From Streptomyces sp. Alt3 (GTDB taxonomy: Bacteria > Actinomycetota > Actinomycetes > Streptomycetales > Streptomycetaceae): 64,000 nt of DNA. Shown piece by piece: positions 29,122 to 37,941 of this stretch. Where the stretch lies: contig NZ_CP120983.1 in NCBI RefSeq assembly GCF_030719215.1, positions 7,006,001 through 7,070,000 on the forward strand, given 5' to 3'. The position numbers were made by a program, and so were the translations under genes. The notes under the pieces were generated by a model that searched no databases, had not been told where the DNA came from, and worked only from the letters and a program-made list of their open reading frames with translations. Positions within the stretch are counted from its first letter, which is position 1. Each line of letters opens with the position of its first letter.

Positions 29122-30495
29122 GTGGAGCCCGACCTCTTTACCGCAGCAGCAGAAGACCGCCAGGAGAAGGACCCGTCCAGCAGCCCCCTCGCTGTCCGGA
29201 TGCGCCCTCGCACACTGGACGAGGTCGTCGGCCAGCAGCATCTGCTCAAGCCGGGCTCGCCGCTGCGTCGGCTCGTCGGCGAGGGCGGCGGAGGCCCCGC
29301 CGGACCGTCGTCGGTGATCCTCTGGGGCCCGCCCGGCACCGGGAAGACGACCCTCGCGTACGTGGTCAGCAAGGCCACCAACAAGCGCTTCGTCGAGCTC
29401 TCCGCGATCACCGCCGGCGTCAAGGAGGTCCGGGCGGTCATCGAGGGCGCGCGGCGCGCCACCGGCGGCTTCGGCAAGGAGACCGTCCTCTTCCTCGACG
29501 AGATCCACCGCTTCTCCAAGGCCCAGCAGGACTCGCTGCTCCCCGCCGTGGAGAACCGCTGGGTCACGCTCATCGCGGCCACCACGGAGAATCCGTACTT
29601 CTCGATCATCTCCCCGCTGCTGTCGCGCTCCCTGCTCCTCACCCTGGAGCCCCTCGGCGACGACGACCTGCGCGCCCTGCTGCACCGGGCCGTCACCGAC
29701 GAGCGAGGACTGGGCGGAGCGGTCGCACTCCCCGGGGACGCCGAGGCACACCTGCTGCGGATCGCCGGGGGAGACGCCCGGCGGGTGCTGACCGCGCTGG
29801 AGGCCGCCGCGGGAGCGGCACTCTCCAAGCACGAGGACGAGATCACGCTGGAGACGCTCGAGGAGACCGTCGACCGCGCCGCCGTGAAGTACGACCGTGA
29901 CGGCGACCAGCACTACGACGTGGCGAGCGCCCTGATCAAGTCGATCCGCGGATCCGACGTGGACGCCGCACTGCACTACCTGGCCCGGATGATCGAGGCG
30001 GGGGAGGACCCGCGCTTCATCGCCCGGCGGCTGATGATCTCCGCCAGCGAGGACATCGGGCTCGCCGACCCGACGGCGCTGCCCACGGCGGTGGCGGCGG
30101 CCCAGGCGGTCGCCATGATCGGTTTCCCCGAGGCGGCGCTCACCCTCAGCCATGCCACGATCGCGCTGGCGCTCGCCCCCAAGTCGAACGCGGCGACACT
30201 GGCGATCTCCGCCGCGCAGGACGACGTGCGCCGAGGACTCGCGGGCCCGGTCCCGGCCCATCTGCGCGACGGTCACTACAAGGGCGCCGCCAAGCTCGGC
30301 CACGCCCAGGGCTATGTCTACCCGCACGACGTCCCGGGCGGGATCGCCGCCCAGGAGTACGCCCCGGACGCCGTCCGCGGCAGGCGCTACTACGAACCCA
30401 CGCGCTACGGCGCGGAAGCGCGCTACGCCGACGTGGCGGAGCGGGTCCGTGAGCGGCTCGGCCGCGGTGAGCAGAGCGGTCCCGAGTCCTCGTGA
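29122..30495 (+). CDS. rarA: Replication-associated recombination ATPase RarA
   Basis: A 457-residue AAA+ protein of the RarA/MgsA/WRNIP1 family, acting at stalled replication forks. Walker A is [10 protein letters not shown] near residues 69-78, Walker B is LFLDEIHRF, and [17 protein letters not shown] is the conserved sensor region. A C-terminal tetramerisation domain ends in YLPxxL-like ARRYYEPT. The GTG at 29122 gives [14 protein letters not shown], including the N-terminal SSB/clamp-contact type sequence typical of the family. The gene is convergent with the DUF2470 gene, 10 bases apart. Confidence 0.95.
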
Positions 30496-30505
30496 CAGCG
30501 GCCGC

Positions 30506-31339
30506 TCAGCAGGCCGCCGCCTCGAAGAGGACGTGCATCGCCCGGCGCAGCTCGCTGATGTCCCGTACGGGATCGGGAAATTCGAACCGGGCGTCGAAGC
30601 AGGCGTCTCCGTCCTCGACGAACCGGACCCGGAGACCGAACCGGTCGACCGCGACCGGGACGGCGTCGAGCCGGTGCTCGGCGCAGCCGCACTCGCCCCG
30701 GTCGCCCAGCAACGCGGACAAGGTGGCCATCTGCTCGCTGTGGGCGGCGTGCAGATGCTGGAGCAGTTCGGCCTCGTGATCGACCAGCGGGTCGGCGACG
30801 GCGTCCCGGAAGTGCTCCGGCTCCACCTCCTCGAAGCCCCACAGATCGTCGACCGACGCCTCCCCGGTCTCCAGCCGGAGCATCATCCGGCCGGGCTGCG
30901 CGAGCCCCGGCACGGCGGTGAGCCAGCCGGCGACCCTGGCGCGTCCGCGGATGCGGTGGGGGACGGAGACCGGAGCGACGTCGGTGATCTCCAGCACAGC
31001 GGTGAGCTCGTCGCCCTGGGCGTGCGTCGCGGCCCGTACGACCGGGGAATCGGCGGGGAACCCCAGGAACAGATCCCCCTCGGGGCCGATGCTCCTGCTG
31101 TCGGGCATCAGCTGGTCCGGATGGATGACCGACAGCCCCGGTACGAGCAGCACCGCGGAGCAGGTACTCTGTACGAGAGTTCGTGTGCGCTCGGCTGCTG
31201 ACGGCATCCGAGTGTTTTCAAGCCCGCTGGGACGCGGCTGACCACGATCAGATCGGCCTTCCGTCGTAGCAGCACCTTTTGGTGTGCTGCCGCTGTCTGT
31301 GCTGTCCGTGACGTGTGTGGTGTTCCCAGGGCGAGACAT
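30506..31339 (-). CDS. DUF2470 domain protein (HugZ-like), probably iron-regulated
   Basis: A 277-residue protein. The N-terminal 45 residues look disordered. Then comes a split-barrel flavin-reductase-like region (SAAERTRTLVQSTCSAVLLV, later GWLTAVPG) and a C-terminal DUF2470 domain (HAAHSEQMATLSALLGDRGE). DUF2470 occurs in HugZ-type haem-degrading proteins, where the C-terminus contributes a haem ligand. Whether this protein binds haem is unknown. A DtxR-family iron box lies 15-33 bases before the ATG, which suggests repression when iron is plentiful and supports an iron or haem role. ATG 31339 follows AAGGAGATCGC. Confidence 0.8.
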   Translation of the reverse strand: MSRPGNTTHVTDSTDSGSTPKGAATTEGRSDRGQPRPSGLENTRMPSAAERTRTLVQSTCSAVLLVPGLSVIHPDQLMPDSRSIGPEGDLFLGFPADSPVVRAATHAQGDELTAVLEITDVAPVSVPHRIRGRARVAGWLTAVPGLAQPGRMMLRLETGEASVDDLWGFEEVEPEHFRDAVADPLVDHEAELLQHLHAAHSEQMATLSALLGDRGECGCAEHRLDAVPVAVDRFGLRVRFVEDGDACFDARFEFPDPVRDISELRRAMHVLFEAAAC

Positions 31340-31353
31340 GCGATCTCCTTGAG

Positions 31354-31372
31354 TAAGGTAAGCCTAACCTAA
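31354..31372. promoter_or_regulatory. Iron box (DmdR1/IdeR-type operator)
   Basis: On the minus strand the sequence is TTAGGTTAGGCTTACCTTA. Two positions differ from the textbook actinobacterial box TTAGGTTAGGCTCACCTAA. It lies between the divergent DUF2470 gene and rpsD, 15 bases from the first and 23 from the second. Confidence 0.8.
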
Positions 31373-31395
31373 CCTACAACGGAGGTCTGGAGAAC

Positions 31396-32010
31396 GTGCC
31401 TAACCAGTCGCGTCCCAAGGTCAAGAAGTCGCGTGCCCTCGGCATCGCCCTGACGCCGAAGGCTGTCAAGTACTTCGAAGCCCGCCCCTACCCGCCGGGC
31501 GAGCACGGCCGTGGCCGCAAGCAGAACTCGGACTACAAGGTCCGTCTGCTCGAGAAGCAGCGTCTGCGTGCGCAGTACGACATCAGCGAGCGCCAGATGG
31601 CGCGCGCCTACGACCGCGCCCGTAAGGCCGAGGGCAAGACGGGCGAGGCGCTGGTCGTCGAGCTCGAGCGCCGCCTCGACGCCCTGGTCCTGCGTTCGGG
31701 CATCGCCCGCACCATCTACCAGGCCCGTCAGATGGTCGTCCACGGCCACATCGAGGTCAACGGTGGCAAGGTCGACAAGCCGTCCTTCCGCGTGCGCCCC
31801 GACGACGTCGTGCAGGTCCGCGAGCGCAGCCGCTCCAAGGTCCCCTTCCAGGTGGCCCGTGAGGGTGGTTACGACACCGACGGTGAGACCCCGCGCTACC
31901 TCCAGGTGAACCTGAAGGCCCTGGCCTTCCGCCTGGACCGTGACCCGAACCGCAAGGAAATTCCGGTCATCTGCGACGAGCAGCTCGTCGTCGAGTACTA
32001 CGCCCGCTGA
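31396..32010 (+). CDS. rpsD: 30S ribosomal protein S4
   Basis: A 204-residue primary 16S rRNA-binding protein of the small subunit. The order is typical: a basic N-terminal domain ([20 protein letters not shown]), then [20 protein letters not shown] in the S4 RNA-binding fold. No zinc cysteines are visible, as expected for the C-minus form. GTG 31396 follows GGAGGTCTGGAG. It is a stand-alone gene away from the main ribosomal clusters, with an iron box immediately upstream. Confidence 0.97.
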
Positions 32011-32024
32011 CGCAGGCGTAGCTC

Positions 32025-34301
32025 TCAACCGAGCTCGGGCCCGCCCCTCCCTGATGTACGGGAGGCGGCGGGCCTTCGCGTATCCCCGGCCGTCCCGGCC
32101 CCGTCGGGTGACCCGGTTCCGGCCGCACCCGCACCGGGCGCCGCCCCCGGGGCCGTGCCGTCACCGCCCGCAGGTGCCGACCCGTCGTCCGCCCCGGCCC
32201 GGAGTGCCCGTGCCACCGCGGCCCGCACGTCCAGCAGGCGGCCCGAGTGCCGCTCCACGTCGTACCGGGCGTCGCCGAGCTGCGCTCTCGCCCGCTCCTC
32301 GCACTCCGCCCGCGGTCTGCCGTAGTGGACGGAGCCGAACAGCGGCAGACCCACCGAGGGCCAGATCCGGTCGGCGGCTCCCTGCAGCACCGCGGCCTCG
32401 GCGGCGTCGCCCTCCGTCGCGGTGACGAGGGCCAGCAGCTCCAGGGAGAGGACCGTGCCCAACAGGTCGTCAAAGGCGTGGGAGATGGACAGTGACTCCG
32501 CGAGCATCCGGCGTGCCCGTCCGCTCGGCCCGGACCGCAGGGCCGCGTAACCCAGGACGTACAGCGCGTAGGCCAGGGTCCACCGCTCACCGTGGTCCTC
32601 GCAGATCTCACGGACCTCGTCGCAGATCGCCGTGGCCGCTTCCAGGTCGCCGCGGAAGGCCACCGCCATGCCCAGCTCGACCTGCGCCATCAGCACGTTG
32701 CTGTTCAGCTCGCCGATCTCCCGGTAGCGCCCCAGCGCCTCGCGCAGCAGGTCCTCGGCCCGGGCCGGGTCGTCCGCGACGATCGAGAGGCAGCCCGTGC
32801 GGTGGACGGCGTAGGCCACGGCGGTGGCGTCCCCCGAGCGTTCCCCCTCCTCGCGGCACTCCTGCAGGGCCGACACCGCTCCCACCGGGTCCCCCTGAAG
32901 CACCGCGACGTACCCCAGTACCCACAGGGCCTTCAGTCGCGAGTGGTCGTAGGGGGACTCCTCCTCCAGGACGTGGTCCAGCCAGTGGCGGCCCTCTGCG
33001 AGGCGCCCGCAGCCCGCCCAGTAGAACCACAGCGTGCCTGCCAGGTACTGCGCGAGATGGACCTCGTCCGGGCTCTCCATCGAGCACTCCATCGCGCGGC
33101 GGAGATTGGGTAGTTCGCTGTCGATCCGCGCCGCGGCCTCCGCCTGTCTGGGGCTGAACCAGTCGAGTTCGCACCACGTTGCCAGGCCCAGGTACCAGTC
33201 CCGGTGTCTGCGGCGCAGCCGACCGGCGTCCCCGGTCGCCCGCAGCCACTCGGCGCCGTACTCCCGCACGGTGTCCAGCAGCCGGTAGCGGCTGCCGACG
33301 GCCGAGTCCTCGCGCAGCACCACGGACTGCGCCAGCAGTTCGTCCAGCACGTCGAGCACCGAGTCGGCGGGCAGATCCGGGCCGCTGCAGATGTACTCGA
33401 CGGCCTCCAGGTCGAACTGCCCGGCGAACACCGAGAGCCGCGCCCACAGCAGCCGCTGCTCTGGAGCGCACAGCTCGTGGCTCCAGCCGATGGCCGTGCG
33501 CAGTGTCTGATGCCGGGGGAGCGCGCAGGGACTGCCCCCGGTCAGGAGCCGGAAGCGGTCGTCGAGACGGTGCAGCACCTGCTCCGTCGTCAGGGCCCGC
33601 AGCCGCCCGGCGGCGAGTTCCAGGGCCAGCGGGATGCCGTCGAGCCGGCGGCAGAGCTCCAGGGCGGTCTCCCGGTCCCCGCCCGGCAGCCGGAAGTCCG
33701 GGCGCACCGCGCAGGCGCGCCGGACGAAGAGTTCCAGGGCGTCGTCGTCCGTCATCGGCAGCAGCGGGAAGGTCACTTCGCCCTCCACCCGCAGGGGCCT
33801 GCGCCCGGCCGCGAGCACCCGGAGTCCGGGTGCCCGGCGCAGCAGCTCCCGTACGAGTTCGGCGCACGGGCCGGCGAGATGCTCGAAACCGTCGATGACG
33901 AGCATGAGCCGGCGTTCCGCGCAGTGCTCGGCCAGTACCGCGCGAGGTGACCTGCTGGTGTGGTCGGTGAGCCCCAGGGCGTCGACCAGCGTGTGCACGA
34001 GAAGCTCCGGGTCATGGACGTCGGAGAGCTCGGCGATCCACACGCCGTCGCAGTACCGTTTCTCCATCAGAGCGGCGACCCGGGCGGTGATACGGGTCTT
34101 GCCCACACCGGCGACCCCCACGACGGTGACGAGCCTGGACTCGCCCAGGAGCGATTCCAGTTCGGCCAGTTCGGCCTCGCGTCCCACGAAGGTGCTCAGC
34201 TCCGCCGGGAGATTTCCGCGTACGGGAGTGGGCTCCGTGCCGTCGGGCGTGGGGGAGGGGCGCTGAGGGTGTCGCATGAAACACGCAGAGTACTGGCACA
34301 T
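32025..34301 (-). CDS. AfsR-like STAND ATPase with tetratricopeptide-type repeats, no DNA-binding domain seen
   Basis: A 758-residue signal-transduction ATPase. After a 30-residue lead, FVGREAELAELESLL opens the NB-ARC-like domain. The P-loop is VGVAGVGKTR (residues 61-70), Walker B LMLVIDGFEHL, and sensor-type GIPLALELAAGRLRAL. A winged-helix spacer is followed by a helical TPR-like region from about residue 400. A Gly/Ala/Thr-rich tail closes the protein. AfsR and LuxR-LAL relatives have a SARP or HTH domain; I see none here, so partners or another output are likely. ATG 34301 (MCQYSACF) follows GGAGAG. Its last codons overlap a stem-loop that may terminate rpsD. An accessory gene between core genes. 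Confidence 0.8.
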   Translation of the reverse strand: MCQYSACFMRHPQRPSPTPDGTEPTPVRGNLPAELSTFVGREAELAELESLLGESRLVTVVGVAGVGKTRITARVAALMEKRYCDGVWIAELSDVHDPELLVHTLVDALGLTDHTSRSPRAVLAEHCAERRLMLVIDGFEHLAGPCAELVRELLRRAPGLRVLAAGRRPLRVEGEVTFPLLPMTDDDALELFVRRACAVRPDFRLPGGDRETALELCRRLDGIPLALELAAGRLRALTTEQVLHRLDDRFRLLTGGSPCALPRHQTLRTAIGWSHELCAPEQRLLWARLSVFAGQFDLEAVEYICSGPDLPADSVLDVLDELLAQSVVLREDSAVGSRYRLLDTVREYGAEWLRATGDAGRLRRRHRDWYLGLATWCELDWFSPRQAEAAARIDSELPNLRRAMECSMESPDEVHLAQYLAGTLWFYWAGCGRLAEGRHWLDHVLEEESPYDHSRLKALWVLGYVAVLQGDPVGAVSALQECREEGERSGDATAVAYAVHRTGCLSIVADDPARAEDLLREALGRYREIGELNSNVLMAQVELGMAVAFRGDLEAATAICDEVREICEDHGERWTLAYALYVLGYAALRSGPSGRARRMLAESLSISHAFDDLLGTVLSLELLALVTATEGDAAEAAVLQGAADRIWPSVGLPLFGSVHYGRPRAECEERARAQLGDARYDVERHSGRLLDVRAAVARALRAGADDGSAPAGGDGTAPGAAPGAGAAGTGSPDGAGTAGDTRRPAASRTSGRGGPELG
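32038..32074. terminator. Stem-loop serving rpsD, inside the 3' end of the ATPase gene
   Basis: GGCCCGCC with GGCGGGCC (8 bp) plus CCTCCC with GGGAGG (6 bp), one bulged base and an 8-base loop. It begins 28 bases after the rpsD stop and overlaps the convergent coding end. Confidence 0.6.
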
Positions 34302-34503
34302 AAGCTCTCCGTACAATCTCCACGCCTCCCGGCGCCGGTGGCGCCCGCCCGTAATGCGGTACGGCGTGCGACGCCCGGCGCGATAGGCTCGGGGGGACGA
34401 CGATCGGCAGAGGTGGCAGGACGCGCCGGCCGAACGGTGACAGGCAGACACCGGCGGGGAGAGGTCCCCGCCGATGCGGGCGACGAGCAGAGAGCGGTGC
34501 ACT

Positions 34504-34968
34504 GTGTCCGGTGGAGAGGTGGCCGGCATCCTGGTGGCTGTCTTCTGGGCGATCCTGGTTTCCTTCCTCGCCGTGGTACTGGTGAGGCTGGCCCAGACGC
34601 TCAGGGCGACCACCGCGCTGGTGGCGGACGTGACGGAGCAGGCTGTCCCGCTGCTCGCCGACGCCTCCGCCACGCTGCGTTCCGCACGGACCCAGCTGGA
34701 CAAGGTCGACGCCATCGCGAGCGACGTCCAGGAGGTCACCTCCAACGCCTCCGCGCTCTCCACGACCGTCGCCTCGACCTTCGGCGGCCCGCTCGTGAAG
34801 GTCGCGGCCTTCGGCTACGGCGTGCGGCAGGCGATCGGCCGCCGCACCGCGGCGGAGCCGGAGCCCGACCGCCGCACCGCCCGCCGCGCCGTGATCGTCG
34901 GCCGAACCGTGCCGTCCGCCCGCGACAGGAAGCGGAACGGCCGAAGCTCCCGCGGACAGAAGGACTGA
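34504..34968 (+). CDS. DUF948 membrane protein
   Basis: A 154-residue protein with an N-terminal membrane helix (residues about 6-28, VAGILVAVFWAILVSFLAVV). A helical, methyl-accepting-like stretch follows (LRATTALVADVTEQAVPLLA), then a basic C-terminal tail. DUF948 proteins are small envelope-associated proteins of unknown function. The GTG at 34504 gives MSGGEVAG. It is 7 bases from the next small gene and leads to alaS, a conserved actinobacterial order. Confidence 0.85.
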   Translation: MSGGEVAGILVAVFWAILVSFLAVVLVRLAQTLRATTALVADVTEQAVPLLADASATLRSARTQLDKVDAIASDVQEVTSNASALSTTVASTFGGPLVKVAAFGYGVRQAIGRRTAAEPEPDRRTARRAVIVGRTVPSARDRKRNGRSSRGQKD

Positions 34969-34975
34969 CCCAGCG

Positions 34976-35272
34976 ATGTTCCGCCGTACGTTCTGGTTCA
35001 CCGCCGGCGCAGCCGCCGGCGTCTGGGCCACCACCAAGGTCAACCGCAAGATCCGGCAGCTGACCCCCGAGAGCCTCGCGGCGCAGGCCGCGGACAAGGC
35101 CATCGAAGCGGGTCACAAGCTGAAGGACTTCGCCCTCGACGTGCGTGAGGGCATGGTCAGGCGCGAGGCCGAACTGGGCGGGGCCCTCGGTATCGAGGCC
35201 CCGGCCGACCCCGAACTCGTCGCCCACCGCGCACTTCCCTACAACCCGAACAACCGGAATGAGGACCACTAA
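34976..35272 (+). CDS. Small conserved actinobacterial protein upstream of alaS
   Basis: A 98-residue protein with a short hydrophobic N-terminus ([20 protein letters not shown]), an amphipathic helical middle and a polar C-terminus. It resembles the DUF6167-type proteins annotated next to alaS in streptomycetes. Function is unknown. Its stop overlaps the alaS ATG (TAATG at 35270-35274), so alaS translation is probably coupled to it. Confidence 0.85.
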
Positions 35273-37941
35273 TGGAGTCGGCTGAAATTCGCCGCCGCTG
35301 GCTGAGCTTCTTCGAGGAGCGCGGTCACACCGTCGTGCCTTCGGCGTCGCTCATCGCGGACGACCCGACTCTGCTGCTGGTCCCCGCGGGCATGGTCCCC
35401 TTCAAGCCGTACTTCCTCGGCGAGGTCAAGCCGCCCGCCCCGCGCGTCACCAGCGTGCAGAAGTGCGTCCGCACGCCGGACATCGAAGAGGTCGGCAAGA
35501 CCACCCGGCACGGCACGTTCTTCCAGATGTGCGGCAACTTCTCCTTCGGCGACTACTTCAAGGAAGGCGCCATCGAGTTCGCCTGGGCGGCGCTCACGAA
35601 CTCCGTGGAGGAGGGCGGCTTCGGCCTCGACCCCGAGCGTCTGTGGATCACGGTCTACCTGGACGACGACGAGGCCGAGCAGATCTGGCGCGAGAAGATC
35701 GGCGTCCCCGCCGAGCGCATCCAGCGCCTGGGCAAGAAGGACAACTTCTGGTCCATGGGCGTCCCCGGCCCCTGCGGCCCGTGCTCCGAGATCAACTACG
35801 ACCGCGGCCCCGAGTTCGGCGTCGAGGGCGGCCCGGCCGTCAACGACGAGCGTTACGTGGAGATCTGGAACCTGGTCTTCATGCAGTACGAGCGGGGCGC
35901 CGGTGACGGCAAGGAGGACTTCCCGATCCTCGGCGACCTGCCGTCGCAGAACATCGACACGGGGCTCGGCCTCGAGCGGCTCGCCATGATCCTGCAGGGC
36001 GTGCAGAACATGTACGAGACCGACACCCTGCGCGTCGTCATGGACAAGGCCACCGAGCTCACCGGCGTGCGCTACGGCGCCGACCAGGGCTCCGACGTCT
36101 CGCTCCGCGTCGTCGCCGACCACGTGCGCACCTCCGTGATGCTCATCGGCGACGGCGTCACCCCCGGCAACGAGGGCCGCGGGTACGTCCTGCGCCGCAT
36201 CATGCGCCGCGCCATCCGCAACATGCGGCTGATGGGCGCCACCGGTCCGGTCGTCCGTGAGCTCGTCGACGTCGTCGTCGAAACCATGGGGCAGCAGTAC
36301 CCGGAGCTGATCACCGACCGCAAGCGCATCGAGACCGTCGCCCTCGCGGAGGAGGCCGCCTTCCTCAAGGCCCTCAAGGGCGGCACGAACATCCTCGACA
36401 CCGCCGTGACCGAGACCAAGGCCGCCGGCGGCAAGGTCCTGGCCGGCGACAAGGCGTTCCTGCTCCACGACACCTGGGGCTTCCCGATCGACCTCACGCT
36501 GGAGATGGCCGCCGAACAGGGCCTCTCGGTCGACGAGGACGGCTTCCGCCGCCTGATGAAGGAGCAGCGGGACCGCGCCAAGGCCGACGCCAGGGCCAAG
36601 AAGACCGGTCACGCCGACCTGTCCGCCTACCGTGAGGTCGCCGACAACTCGGGCGTCACGGAGTTCACCGGCTACACCTCCACCGAGGGCGAGTCGAAGA
36701 TCGTCGGGCTCCTCGTCGACGGCGTCTCCTCGCCCGCCGCCTCCGAGGGCGACGAGGTCGAGGTCGTCCTCGACCGCACCCCGTTCTACGCCGAGGGCGG
36801 CGGACAGCTCGCCGACCAGGGCCGGATCAGGCTCGACAGCGGCGCCGTCATCCAGGTCCGCGACGTACAGCAGCCGGTCCCGGGGGTCTCGGTCCACAAG
36901 GGTTCGGTCCAGGTCGGAGAGGTGACGGTCGGCGCCACCGCCTACGCCGCCATCGACAACACCCGCCGCCGCGCCATCGCCCGCGCCCACAGCGCCACGC
37001 ACCTCACCCACCAGGCGCTGCGCGACGCGCTCGGCCCGACCGCCGCCCAGGCCGGTTCGGAGAACTCGCCCGGCCGCTTCCGCTTCGACTTCGGCTCGCC
37101 CGCCGCCGTCCCCGGCACGGTCCTGACCGACGTCGAGCAGAAGATCAACGAGGTCCTCGCCCGGGAACTCGACGTCCAGGCCGAGGTCATGTCCATCGAC
37201 GACGCCAAGAAGCAGGGCGCCATCGCCGAGTTCGGCGAGAAGTACGGCGAGCGGGTCCGCGTCGTCACCATCGGGGACTTCTCCAAGGAGCTGTGCGGCG
37301 GCACGCACGTCCGCAACACCTCCCAGCTCGGCCTGGTGAAGCTGCTCGGTGAGTCGTCGATCGGCTCCGGTGTCCGCCGCGTCGAGGCCCTCGTCGGTGT
37401 GGACGCGTACAACTTCCTCGCCAAGGAGCACACGGTCGTCGCCCAGCTCCAGGAACTGCTCAAGGGCCGTCCCGAGGAGCTCCCCGAGAAGATCTCCGGC
37501 ATGCTCGGCAAGCTCAAGGACGCCGAGAAGGAGATCGAGAAGTTCCGCGCGGAGAAGGTCCTGGCTGCCGCCGCCGGACTCGTGGAGACGGCCAGGGACG
37601 TGCGCGGTGTCGCCCTCGTCACCGGGCAGGTGCCGGACGGCACCACGGCCGACGACCTGCGCAAGCTGGTCCTGGACGTGCGCGGGCGCATCCAGGGCGG
37701 CCGCCCGGCCGTCGTGGCCCTGTTCACCACCGCCAACGGGCGTCCGCTGACGGTCATCGCCACCAACGAGGCGGCCCGCGAGCGCGGCCTCAAGGCCGGT
37801 GACCTGGTGCGCACCGCCGCCAAGACCCTCGGTGGCGGTGGCGGCGGCAAGCCGGACGTCGCCCAGGGCGGCGGCCAGAACCCGGACGCCGTCGGCGACG
37901 CCATGGCGGCCGTCGAACGCCTCGTCACCGAGACGGCGTGA
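35272..37941 (+). CDS. alaS: Alanyl-tRNA synthetase
   Basis: A class II synthetase of 889 residues. The aminoacylation core shows [12 protein letters not shown] and [20 protein letters not shown]. The editing domain has the zinc-binding [11 protein letters not shown] and [13 protein letters not shown] motifs. A glycine-rich C-Ala domain ends the protein. ATG 35272 overlaps the preceding stop. The ruvX start overlaps the alaS stop (GTGA at 37938), so at least three genes are coupled. Confidence 0.97.

Follow-up and report, generated by a model that had tools for sequence, protein, structure and literature searches.

The gene described here lies in a 64,000-nucleotide stretch of Streptomyces sp. 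Alt3 (assembly GCF_030719215.1, contig NZ_CP120983.1, positions 7,006,001 to 7,070,000 of the forward strand), referred to as the window; all coordinates below count from its first base. On the minus strand, between the ribosomal protein S4 gene (rpsD) and a DUF948 gene, the window encodes a STAND-type ATPase with tetratricopeptide repeats (TPRs), here called the STAND protein, in which no helix-turn-helix (HTH) domain was found by Pfam. We give somewhat better than even odds to the view that it is an old Streptomyces molecular switch of the STAND type, signalling in trans and lacking any recognisable output domain. The features of the locus are collected in Table 1.

Table 1. Coordinates of the STAND gene, its parts and its immediate surroundings in the window
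Feature	Coordinates	Strand	Extent and basis
HTH-less STAND-TPR coding sequence	32025..34277	-	750 amino acids from the favoured start, ATG 34277; open frame, conserved promoter spacing, 50-sequence alignment
In-frame upstream extension	34278..34301	-	Probably promoter, not coding; start codon at 34301 in 6/80 sequences; in-frame stop present in L036; contains the -10-like element
Promoter-like element	34287..34316	-	TTGTAC 34311-34316, 18 bases, TACTCT 34287-34292, then 9 bases to the ATG
Nucleotide-binding domain	33783..34217	-	About residues 21-165; Walker A 54-62, Walker B D129, sensor-like R159; Pfam AAA, invariance, modest model confidence
Helical domain of STAND core	33528..33782	-	About residues 166-250; GxP motif P216 invariant (n = 78); helices in model
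Winged-helix-like domain of STAND core	33273..33527	-	About residues 251-335; helices and two strands in model; aligned to NB-ARC proteins, Apaf-1
Arm and TPR solenoid	32202..33272	-	About residues 336-692; TPR_12 above, TPR_MalT below cut-off; helical repeats, mostly of high model confidence
C-terminal tail	32028..32201	-	Residues 693-750; poorly conserved, mostly predicted disordered; pLDDT <50 for 699-750
Stem-loop after rpsD, probably its terminator	32038..32074	+	Entirely within the STAND coding sequence; fold of 32011-32085 (75 bases), z -3.46
rpsD (ribosomal protein S4)	31396..32010	+	Convergent neighbour, stop codons 14 bases apart; Pfam Ribosomal_S4 and S4
DUF948 gene	34474..34968	+	Divergent neighbour, then DUF6167 and alaS; Pfam DUF948, synteny

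Domain content and structure model

A mechanical listing of open reading frames (ORFs) gave a minus-strand frame open over 32025-34763 from a GTG, which encodes 758 amino acids when counted from the ATG at 34301. Its product scores above the Pfam cut-offs for AAA_22, AAA_16 and TPR_12 and slightly below that for NB-ARC (21.6 bits against 23.5), while NACHT, nSTAND1 and TPR_MalT also match, each under its cut-off. The MalT-like TPR region (PF17874) reaches 32.8 bits against a cut-off of 45; of the 50 aligned sequences, 48 match it at E ≤ 0.1. The protein has Walker A, Walker B and GxP motifs, and residues G54, G57, G59, K60, R62, D129, R159 and P216 are invariant across 78 sequences; these include the three that mark a STAND/NB-ARC ATPase, namely K60 of the P-loop, D129 of Walker B and P216 of GxP. 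A sequence-only reading of this DNA had proposed a STAND ATPase with P-loop, Walker B and TPR-like regions, which these searches bear out. Two NCBIfam models of other TPR proteins, the FxSxx-COOH system TPR protein (54.6 bits, cut-off 300) and HaaT (82.2 bits, cut-off 1125), match the ATPase part weakly, with scores far under their curated cut-offs.

The sequence-only reading had also seen neither a Streptomyces antibiotic regulatory protein (SARP) domain nor a LuxR-type HTH, and profile searches agreed. Pfam found no SARP domain (Trans_reg_C plus BTAD) at the N-terminus and no LuxR-type HTH at the C-terminus, and none of the 17 Pfam families that match the protein at E ≤ 1 is a DNA-binding family. 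Among the 25 commonest of the 40 families matched by the 50 aligned sequences there was no HTH family; all were AAA/NTPase or repeat families. We take the missing DNA-binding domain to be meaningful because the same library detected GerE (the LuxR HTH) in two relatives (L083 and L088) and BTAD plus Trans_reg_C in a third (L002).

In an AlphaFold2 model (predicted local distance difference test [pLDDT] 79.9, predicted template modelling score [pTM] 0.74), the protein folds as a STAND core, an arm and a TPR solenoid, with low confidence at both ends (residues 1-28 and 699-750). The model and its alignment to 6mfv and Apaf-1 show the STAND/NB-ARC layout, in which nucleotide-binding, helical and winged-helix domains are followed by a repeat sensor. 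The top Foldseek match was PH0952 (6mfv; E 3e-11), followed by Apaf-1 and plant nucleotide-binding leucine-rich repeat proteins (NLRs). VIA-align ranked NRC2 (Z 18.6, root-mean-square deviation [rmsd] 4.1, 304 residues aligned), the maltose-system entry 8bob_C (Z 17.6, rmsd 4.7, 360 aligned) and 6mfv (Z 17.3, rmsd 9.5, 516 aligned), the last spanning model residues 23-704. The protein thus resembles the PH0952 and MalT type in that a single chain combines a STAND core, an arm and a TPR solenoid, the structural match being loose. No solved structure was recovered at E ≤ 0.01 by a single-sequence search, and a profile search of solved structures gave ten weak NB-ARC, TPR and PH0952 matches. The arm and solenoid are presumed to be the sensor or partner-binding part. 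The TPR part also aligns with the peptide-binding proteins Rap, PlcR and NprR (VIA-align Z of about 14-15), from which we deduce no ligand because many unrelated TPR proteins do the same.

The winged-helix-like segment of the model, together with the arm, is the best conserved part of the protein, and it raises the idea that the protein binds DNA directly, through this segment or through a diverged domain. In PH0952, however, the winged-helix domain is described as a part of the core that packs on its neighbours (PMC6468293), and the Pfam result given above also speaks against DNA binding. We read residues 251-335 as a component of the switch rather than a DNA-binding domain joined to it, and consider direct DNA binding decidedly improbable.

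Start codon and promoter

The start was compared in 80 sequences, the window and 79 loci (L009, whose contig ends there, was left out), placed on the methionine of a conserved MR (MP in L052) that corresponds to ATG 34277 in the window. That ATG is present in 80/80 by construction, as it was the placement point; the fixed distance to the promoter elements is independent of the placement. TTGTAC occurs at -39 in 79 sequences and TAnnnT at -15 in 79; only L039 departs from both. No more than six sequences, that of the window among them, have a start codon at 34301, and in L036 an in-frame stop falls between the equivalents of 34301 and 34277. The start at ATG 34301 that had been assumed earlier is therefore disfavoured, and the comparison indicates that the coding sequence probably begins at ATG 34277.

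The usual -10 element of S. coelicolor is TAnnnT, and its mRNAs count as leaderless when the leader is shorter than 9 nucleotides (PMC4895711). The TACTCT element lies 9 bases ahead of the ATG, a spacing that would place the transcription start less than 9 nucleotides from the start codon, so the mRNA is likely leaderless; none of the 80 sequences has a GGAG- or GAGG-like motif at -20 to -4, which fits. A generic sigma-70 scan of 31900-34600, by contrast, reported no promoter, a result that counts against both predictions; it is conservation, not that scan, that supports the promoter. The corrected start and the promoter are relevant to anyone building a construct or a deletion. The exact promoter pattern occurs once in the genome of Alt3. 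A regulon sharing this motif was considered and rejected, as nine sites with at most one mismatch were found in that genome against 26 for a reversed-pattern control.

Conservation of place, distribution and selection

A scan with peptide patterns of one genome per species (84,980 species), which can show presence only, yielded 168 relatives; the analysis continued with the best 80. Seventy-eight of these 80 are labelled Streptomyces, and the others are [Kitasatospora] papulosa and Actinobacteria bacterium OV450. The gene has rpsD beside it in 78 of the 80 (L032 and L037 end before rpsD) and DUF948, DUF6167 and alaS in 79 (the L009 contig stops short of them).

Of 20 relatives searched, only the 12 from the same genus served to count absences; the remaining eight belong to other genera of the order. 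Nine of the 12 have a match at E < 1e-200, in every case on the locus with rpsD, and none of the eight does, the best being 5.7e-146 at 41% identity in G013. In the three same-genus genomes that are missing the gene (G006, G009 and G010), rpsD is followed by DUF948 after 419, 156 and 192 bases, respectively, measured up to the first aligned DUF948 codon. These three rpsD-DUF948 gaps (loci L122, L123 and L124) hold no detectable remnant: tblastn matches were at chance level (best E with the STAND query 0.12), and neither TTGTACG nor AGTACnCT was present. In an 85-row tree of rpsD, alaS, rarA and DUF948, drawn at a midpoint root without branch supports, the three gene-less genomes sit apart from each other among carriers. 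These scattered clean absences, together with the conserved synteny, suggest that the gene is old Streptomyces stock that was lost cleanly several times.

The gene had earlier been described as inserted between housekeeping genes. We reject that description: all 80 best relatives have it at the same place where their contigs reach, its G+C content (0.70 to 0.76) is close to that of its surroundings, and the synteny and the remnant-free absences scattered through the tree speak against a recent insertion. Universality at this place, named beforehand as a finding that would speak against the sequence-only reading, holds largely (9/12 same-genus genomes) and not wholly (3/12 do not carry the gene).

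The ratio of nonsynonymous to synonymous substitution rates (dN/dS) for residues 21-692 is 0.15 to 0.18 in 7/7 close pairs, and the core is thus under strong purifying selection. In the same seven pairs, the tail gives 0.58 to 1.50.

The likeness of an NB-ARC-like core with a repeat sensor to Apaf-1 and plant NLRs could be taken to indicate a defence protein. The PADLOC anti-phage models gave no significant match to the STAND protein (the sole match, mad8, was at E 0.054), no effector domain was found, and no relative was found in viral contigs. The gene stays at one place in the chromosome, and its pairwise distances follow those of neighbouring housekeeping genes (r 0.83 over 78 sequences), which is not the picture of patchy transfer. 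We regard a role in defence as highly improbable.

Relatives with and without a helix-turn-helix

AfsR, a STAND regulator, activates antibiotic production, and the sequence-only reading had called the protein AfsR-like. Part of that likeness stands. The STAND protein shares with AfsR and other large Streptomyces SARP regulators the combination of a nucleotide-binding oligomerization domain (NOD) and TPRs, and its ATPase part is 41-42% identical to a SARP-type paralogue in its own genome. That paralogue matches query residues 8-433 only, whereas the near-full-length matches are LuxR-type, kinase-LuxR or HTH-less proteins; unlike the SARP regulators, the STAND protein has no detected Trans_reg_C plus BTAD and falls outside their clade.

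Near-full-length relatives on plasmid records (L083, L087, L088, L085 and L089) are LuxR-type and kinase-LuxR proteins, 39-41% identical nearly end to end. They differ in ending in a LuxR HTH (by Pfam in L083 and L088, by a visible motif in the others), whereas the STAND protein ends in a disordered tail; in the alignment, the tail occupies the position of the linker and HTH that some relatives bear. L089 is annotated "protein kinase," and L085, which was not Pfam-scanned, has a similar N-terminal stretch. Further HTH-less homologues (L128 to L132, L135, L136 and L109) occur in other Streptomyces genomes and in Nonomuraea; seven of the eight were Pfam-scanned, and L132 is called HTH-less from its ORF end only. 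They share the architecture and the side of the tree described next but are 34-42% identical and lie at other genomic places.

In a 40-row unrooted tree, a branch with 98/96 support separates 15 rpsD-linked and eight other HTH-less rows from 17 SARP, LuxR and kinase-LuxR rows. The SARP rows form one clade (100/100) that excludes the STAND protein; of these nine rows, only L002 was checked with Pfam, the other eight being labelled by their long N-terminal extensions. L133, L134, L137, L085, L087 and L089 were called LuxR-type from a visible motif. Three rows were dropped: L086 because the frame taken for it was a wrong one of 19 amino acids, L102 because the locus end cuts the frame, and L084 because it represents the same place as L109. 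Judged by this tree, the STAND protein is more than AfsR minus its SARP, since HTH-less and HTH-bearing rows fall on opposite sides. The tree has no outgroup, and its HTH-less rows were picked for short frames, so it is no census of HTH-less homologues; for these reasons, it is compatible with both an ancient loss of the HTH and an ancestral HTH-less state.

If the protein were a former regulator, now a relic or drifting after the loss of a C-terminal LuxR HTH, this would explain why near-full-length relatives bear the HTH exactly where the STAND protein has a disordered tail. The low dN/dS and invariant catalytic residues argue against this, as do the conserved promoter block and the HTH-less state common to homologues in Streptomyces and Nonomuraea. 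We judge it quite improbable. The earlier suggestion that the protein had lost its output domain finds no support as a recent event: such decay is already contradicted by the comparisons of selection and by the position of the protein apart from HTH-bearing rows.

Alternatively, the STAND protein might co-assemble with, or titrate, HTH-bearing STAND paralogues of the AfsR-like or LuxR type through their common core and so tune their activity. The identity with the SARP-type paralogue over the ATPase part and the many STAND matches in several sampled genomes lend this some appeal. It sits less well with the paralogue's partial match, with the separation of the STAND protein from SARP and LuxR rows, and with the number of STAND matches per same-genus relative, which ranges from 1 to 14 while the rpsD-linked gene is steadier. 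We consider mixed assembly unlikely.

No partner gene common to the HTH-less homologues emerged: ten neighbour proteins from eight loci, not all neighbours, had no Pfam family in common at E ≤ 1e-8. L128 adjoins a methyltransferase gene (L128:4825-5595) and L109 a terpene synthase gene (L109:14093-15130); from these neighbours, some HTH-less STAND-TPR homologues may be tied to secondary metabolism. The L109 record, from Nonomuraea gerenzanensis, is labelled "plasmid I" but is 11.85 Mb long and looks like a chromosome.

The S. coelicolor counterpart may be SCO1504, a guess from gene numbering. Among the papers listed, surveyed by title and opening of the abstract, none named the STAND gene, and nothing appeared under SCO1504. 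The rpsD gene of that species is SCO1505 (PMC4595836).

A proposed switch acting through a separate partner

We postulate that the STAND protein is most likely a nucleotide-switched protein hub acting in trans; a sensor that acts through protein contacts, one of the options raised by the sequence-only reading, is our best reading of the analysis. The gene would have a conserved promoter of its own, probably giving a leaderless mRNA. By analogy with MalT, PH0952 and AfsR, the core of the resting protein would carry ADP and be clamped by the arm and the TPR sensor. Binding of a ligand to the TPRs, be it a peptide, a protein or a small molecule, would release the clamp, ADP would be exchanged for ATP, and the core would open and assemble or change shape. 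The opened form would then bind another protein and control it, so that the STAND protein would keep the switch and hand the output to this partner, which may be a transcription regulator. The literature is consistent with such a cycle in relatives: PH0952 and MalT are held closed (autoinhibited) by arm and sensor contacts (PMC6468293), and in AfsR the NOD and TPRs inhibit the SARP output until ATP binding relieves the inhibition (PMC10936776).

Several points weigh against this proposal. The ligand, partner, ATPase activity and oligomer in it are all predictions. Assembly is uncertain even for relatives because the oligomeric state of AfsR was unchanged by ATP in vitro (PMC10936776). P-loop residues 56-58 of the model have pLDDT below 50, the Foldseek match to 6mfv is loose (TM-score 0.43, rmsd 10.8, 14% identity), and unrelated TPR proteins reach VIA-align Z scores of 14 to 17 on the solenoid, nearly equal to the best. 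The gene is dispensable, since three of 12 sampled same-genus genomes are without it, and no conserved neighbour suggests itself as the partner: rpsD, DUF948, DUF6167 and alaS stay where the gene is missing.

A bolder version of the proposal would make the protein a Streptomyces-wide HTH-less hub, expressed from a leaderless promoter with a once-in-genome pattern and serving as a master adaptor in trans, which senses a signal through its TPRs, assembles with ATP and switches at least one regulator, while the overlap of its transcript with the rpsD terminator couples the switch to S4 supply. We think it improbable that all of this holds. For the question of how bacterial STAND proteins with no output domain at all signal, a single, syntenic and apparently vertically inherited member that most sampled Streptomyces carry, and that some cleanly lack by nature and so allow comparison, makes a good place to seek a partner.

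Overlap with rpsD and neighbouring features

The rpsD stop codon was confirmed in 78/78 loci, and its distance from the STAND stop codon ranges from -13 to 54 bases (median 17), with ten loci overlapping by 13. When the 110 bases that follow rpsD are folded, the longest hairpin (stems of at least 5 pairs counted, median 17) lies within the STAND coding sequence in 76 of these 78 loci, partly within it in L018 and outside it in L050. The earlier observation that the 3' end of the gene overlaps the rpsD stem-loop is thus confirmed in the window and extends to most orthologous loci. With the hairpin inside the coding sequence, the poorly conserved tail would in part be a translated rpsD terminator region. 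No Rfam family was found at the gathering threshold in 30000-36000.

This arrangement could mean that the main effect of the gene is on rpsD, with transcription through the rpsD terminator producing an antisense overlap that tunes rpsD mRNA. The close stop codons and the hairpin within the coding sequence agree with that idea, yet tight convergent spacing alone accounts for the overlap, and the selection acting on the protein shows it to be of importance. We consider an antisense role very unlikely. The overlap has a practical side, in that careless deletion of the STAND gene may disturb rpsD.

The S4 protein encoded by rpsD is atypical, its N-terminal part being free of cysteines. In four searched genomes from other genera of the order, the best S4 match had 43-62% identity, and G013 had both a 62% and a 43% copy; the low identity and the two copies suggest that S4 was displaced in the Streptomyces line.

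A DtxR/IdeR-type iron box, TAAGGTAAGCCTAACCTAA, lies at 31354-31372 between rpsD and a divergent DUF2470 gene. It has two mismatches to the consensus, and a mean of 0.00 such boxes is expected in the window. Of 15 loci chosen for alignment, 13 have the box together with the DUF2470 gene (the box being weaker in L070) and two (L059 and L123) have neither. Because they are present or absent together, the box probably controls the DUF2470 gene.
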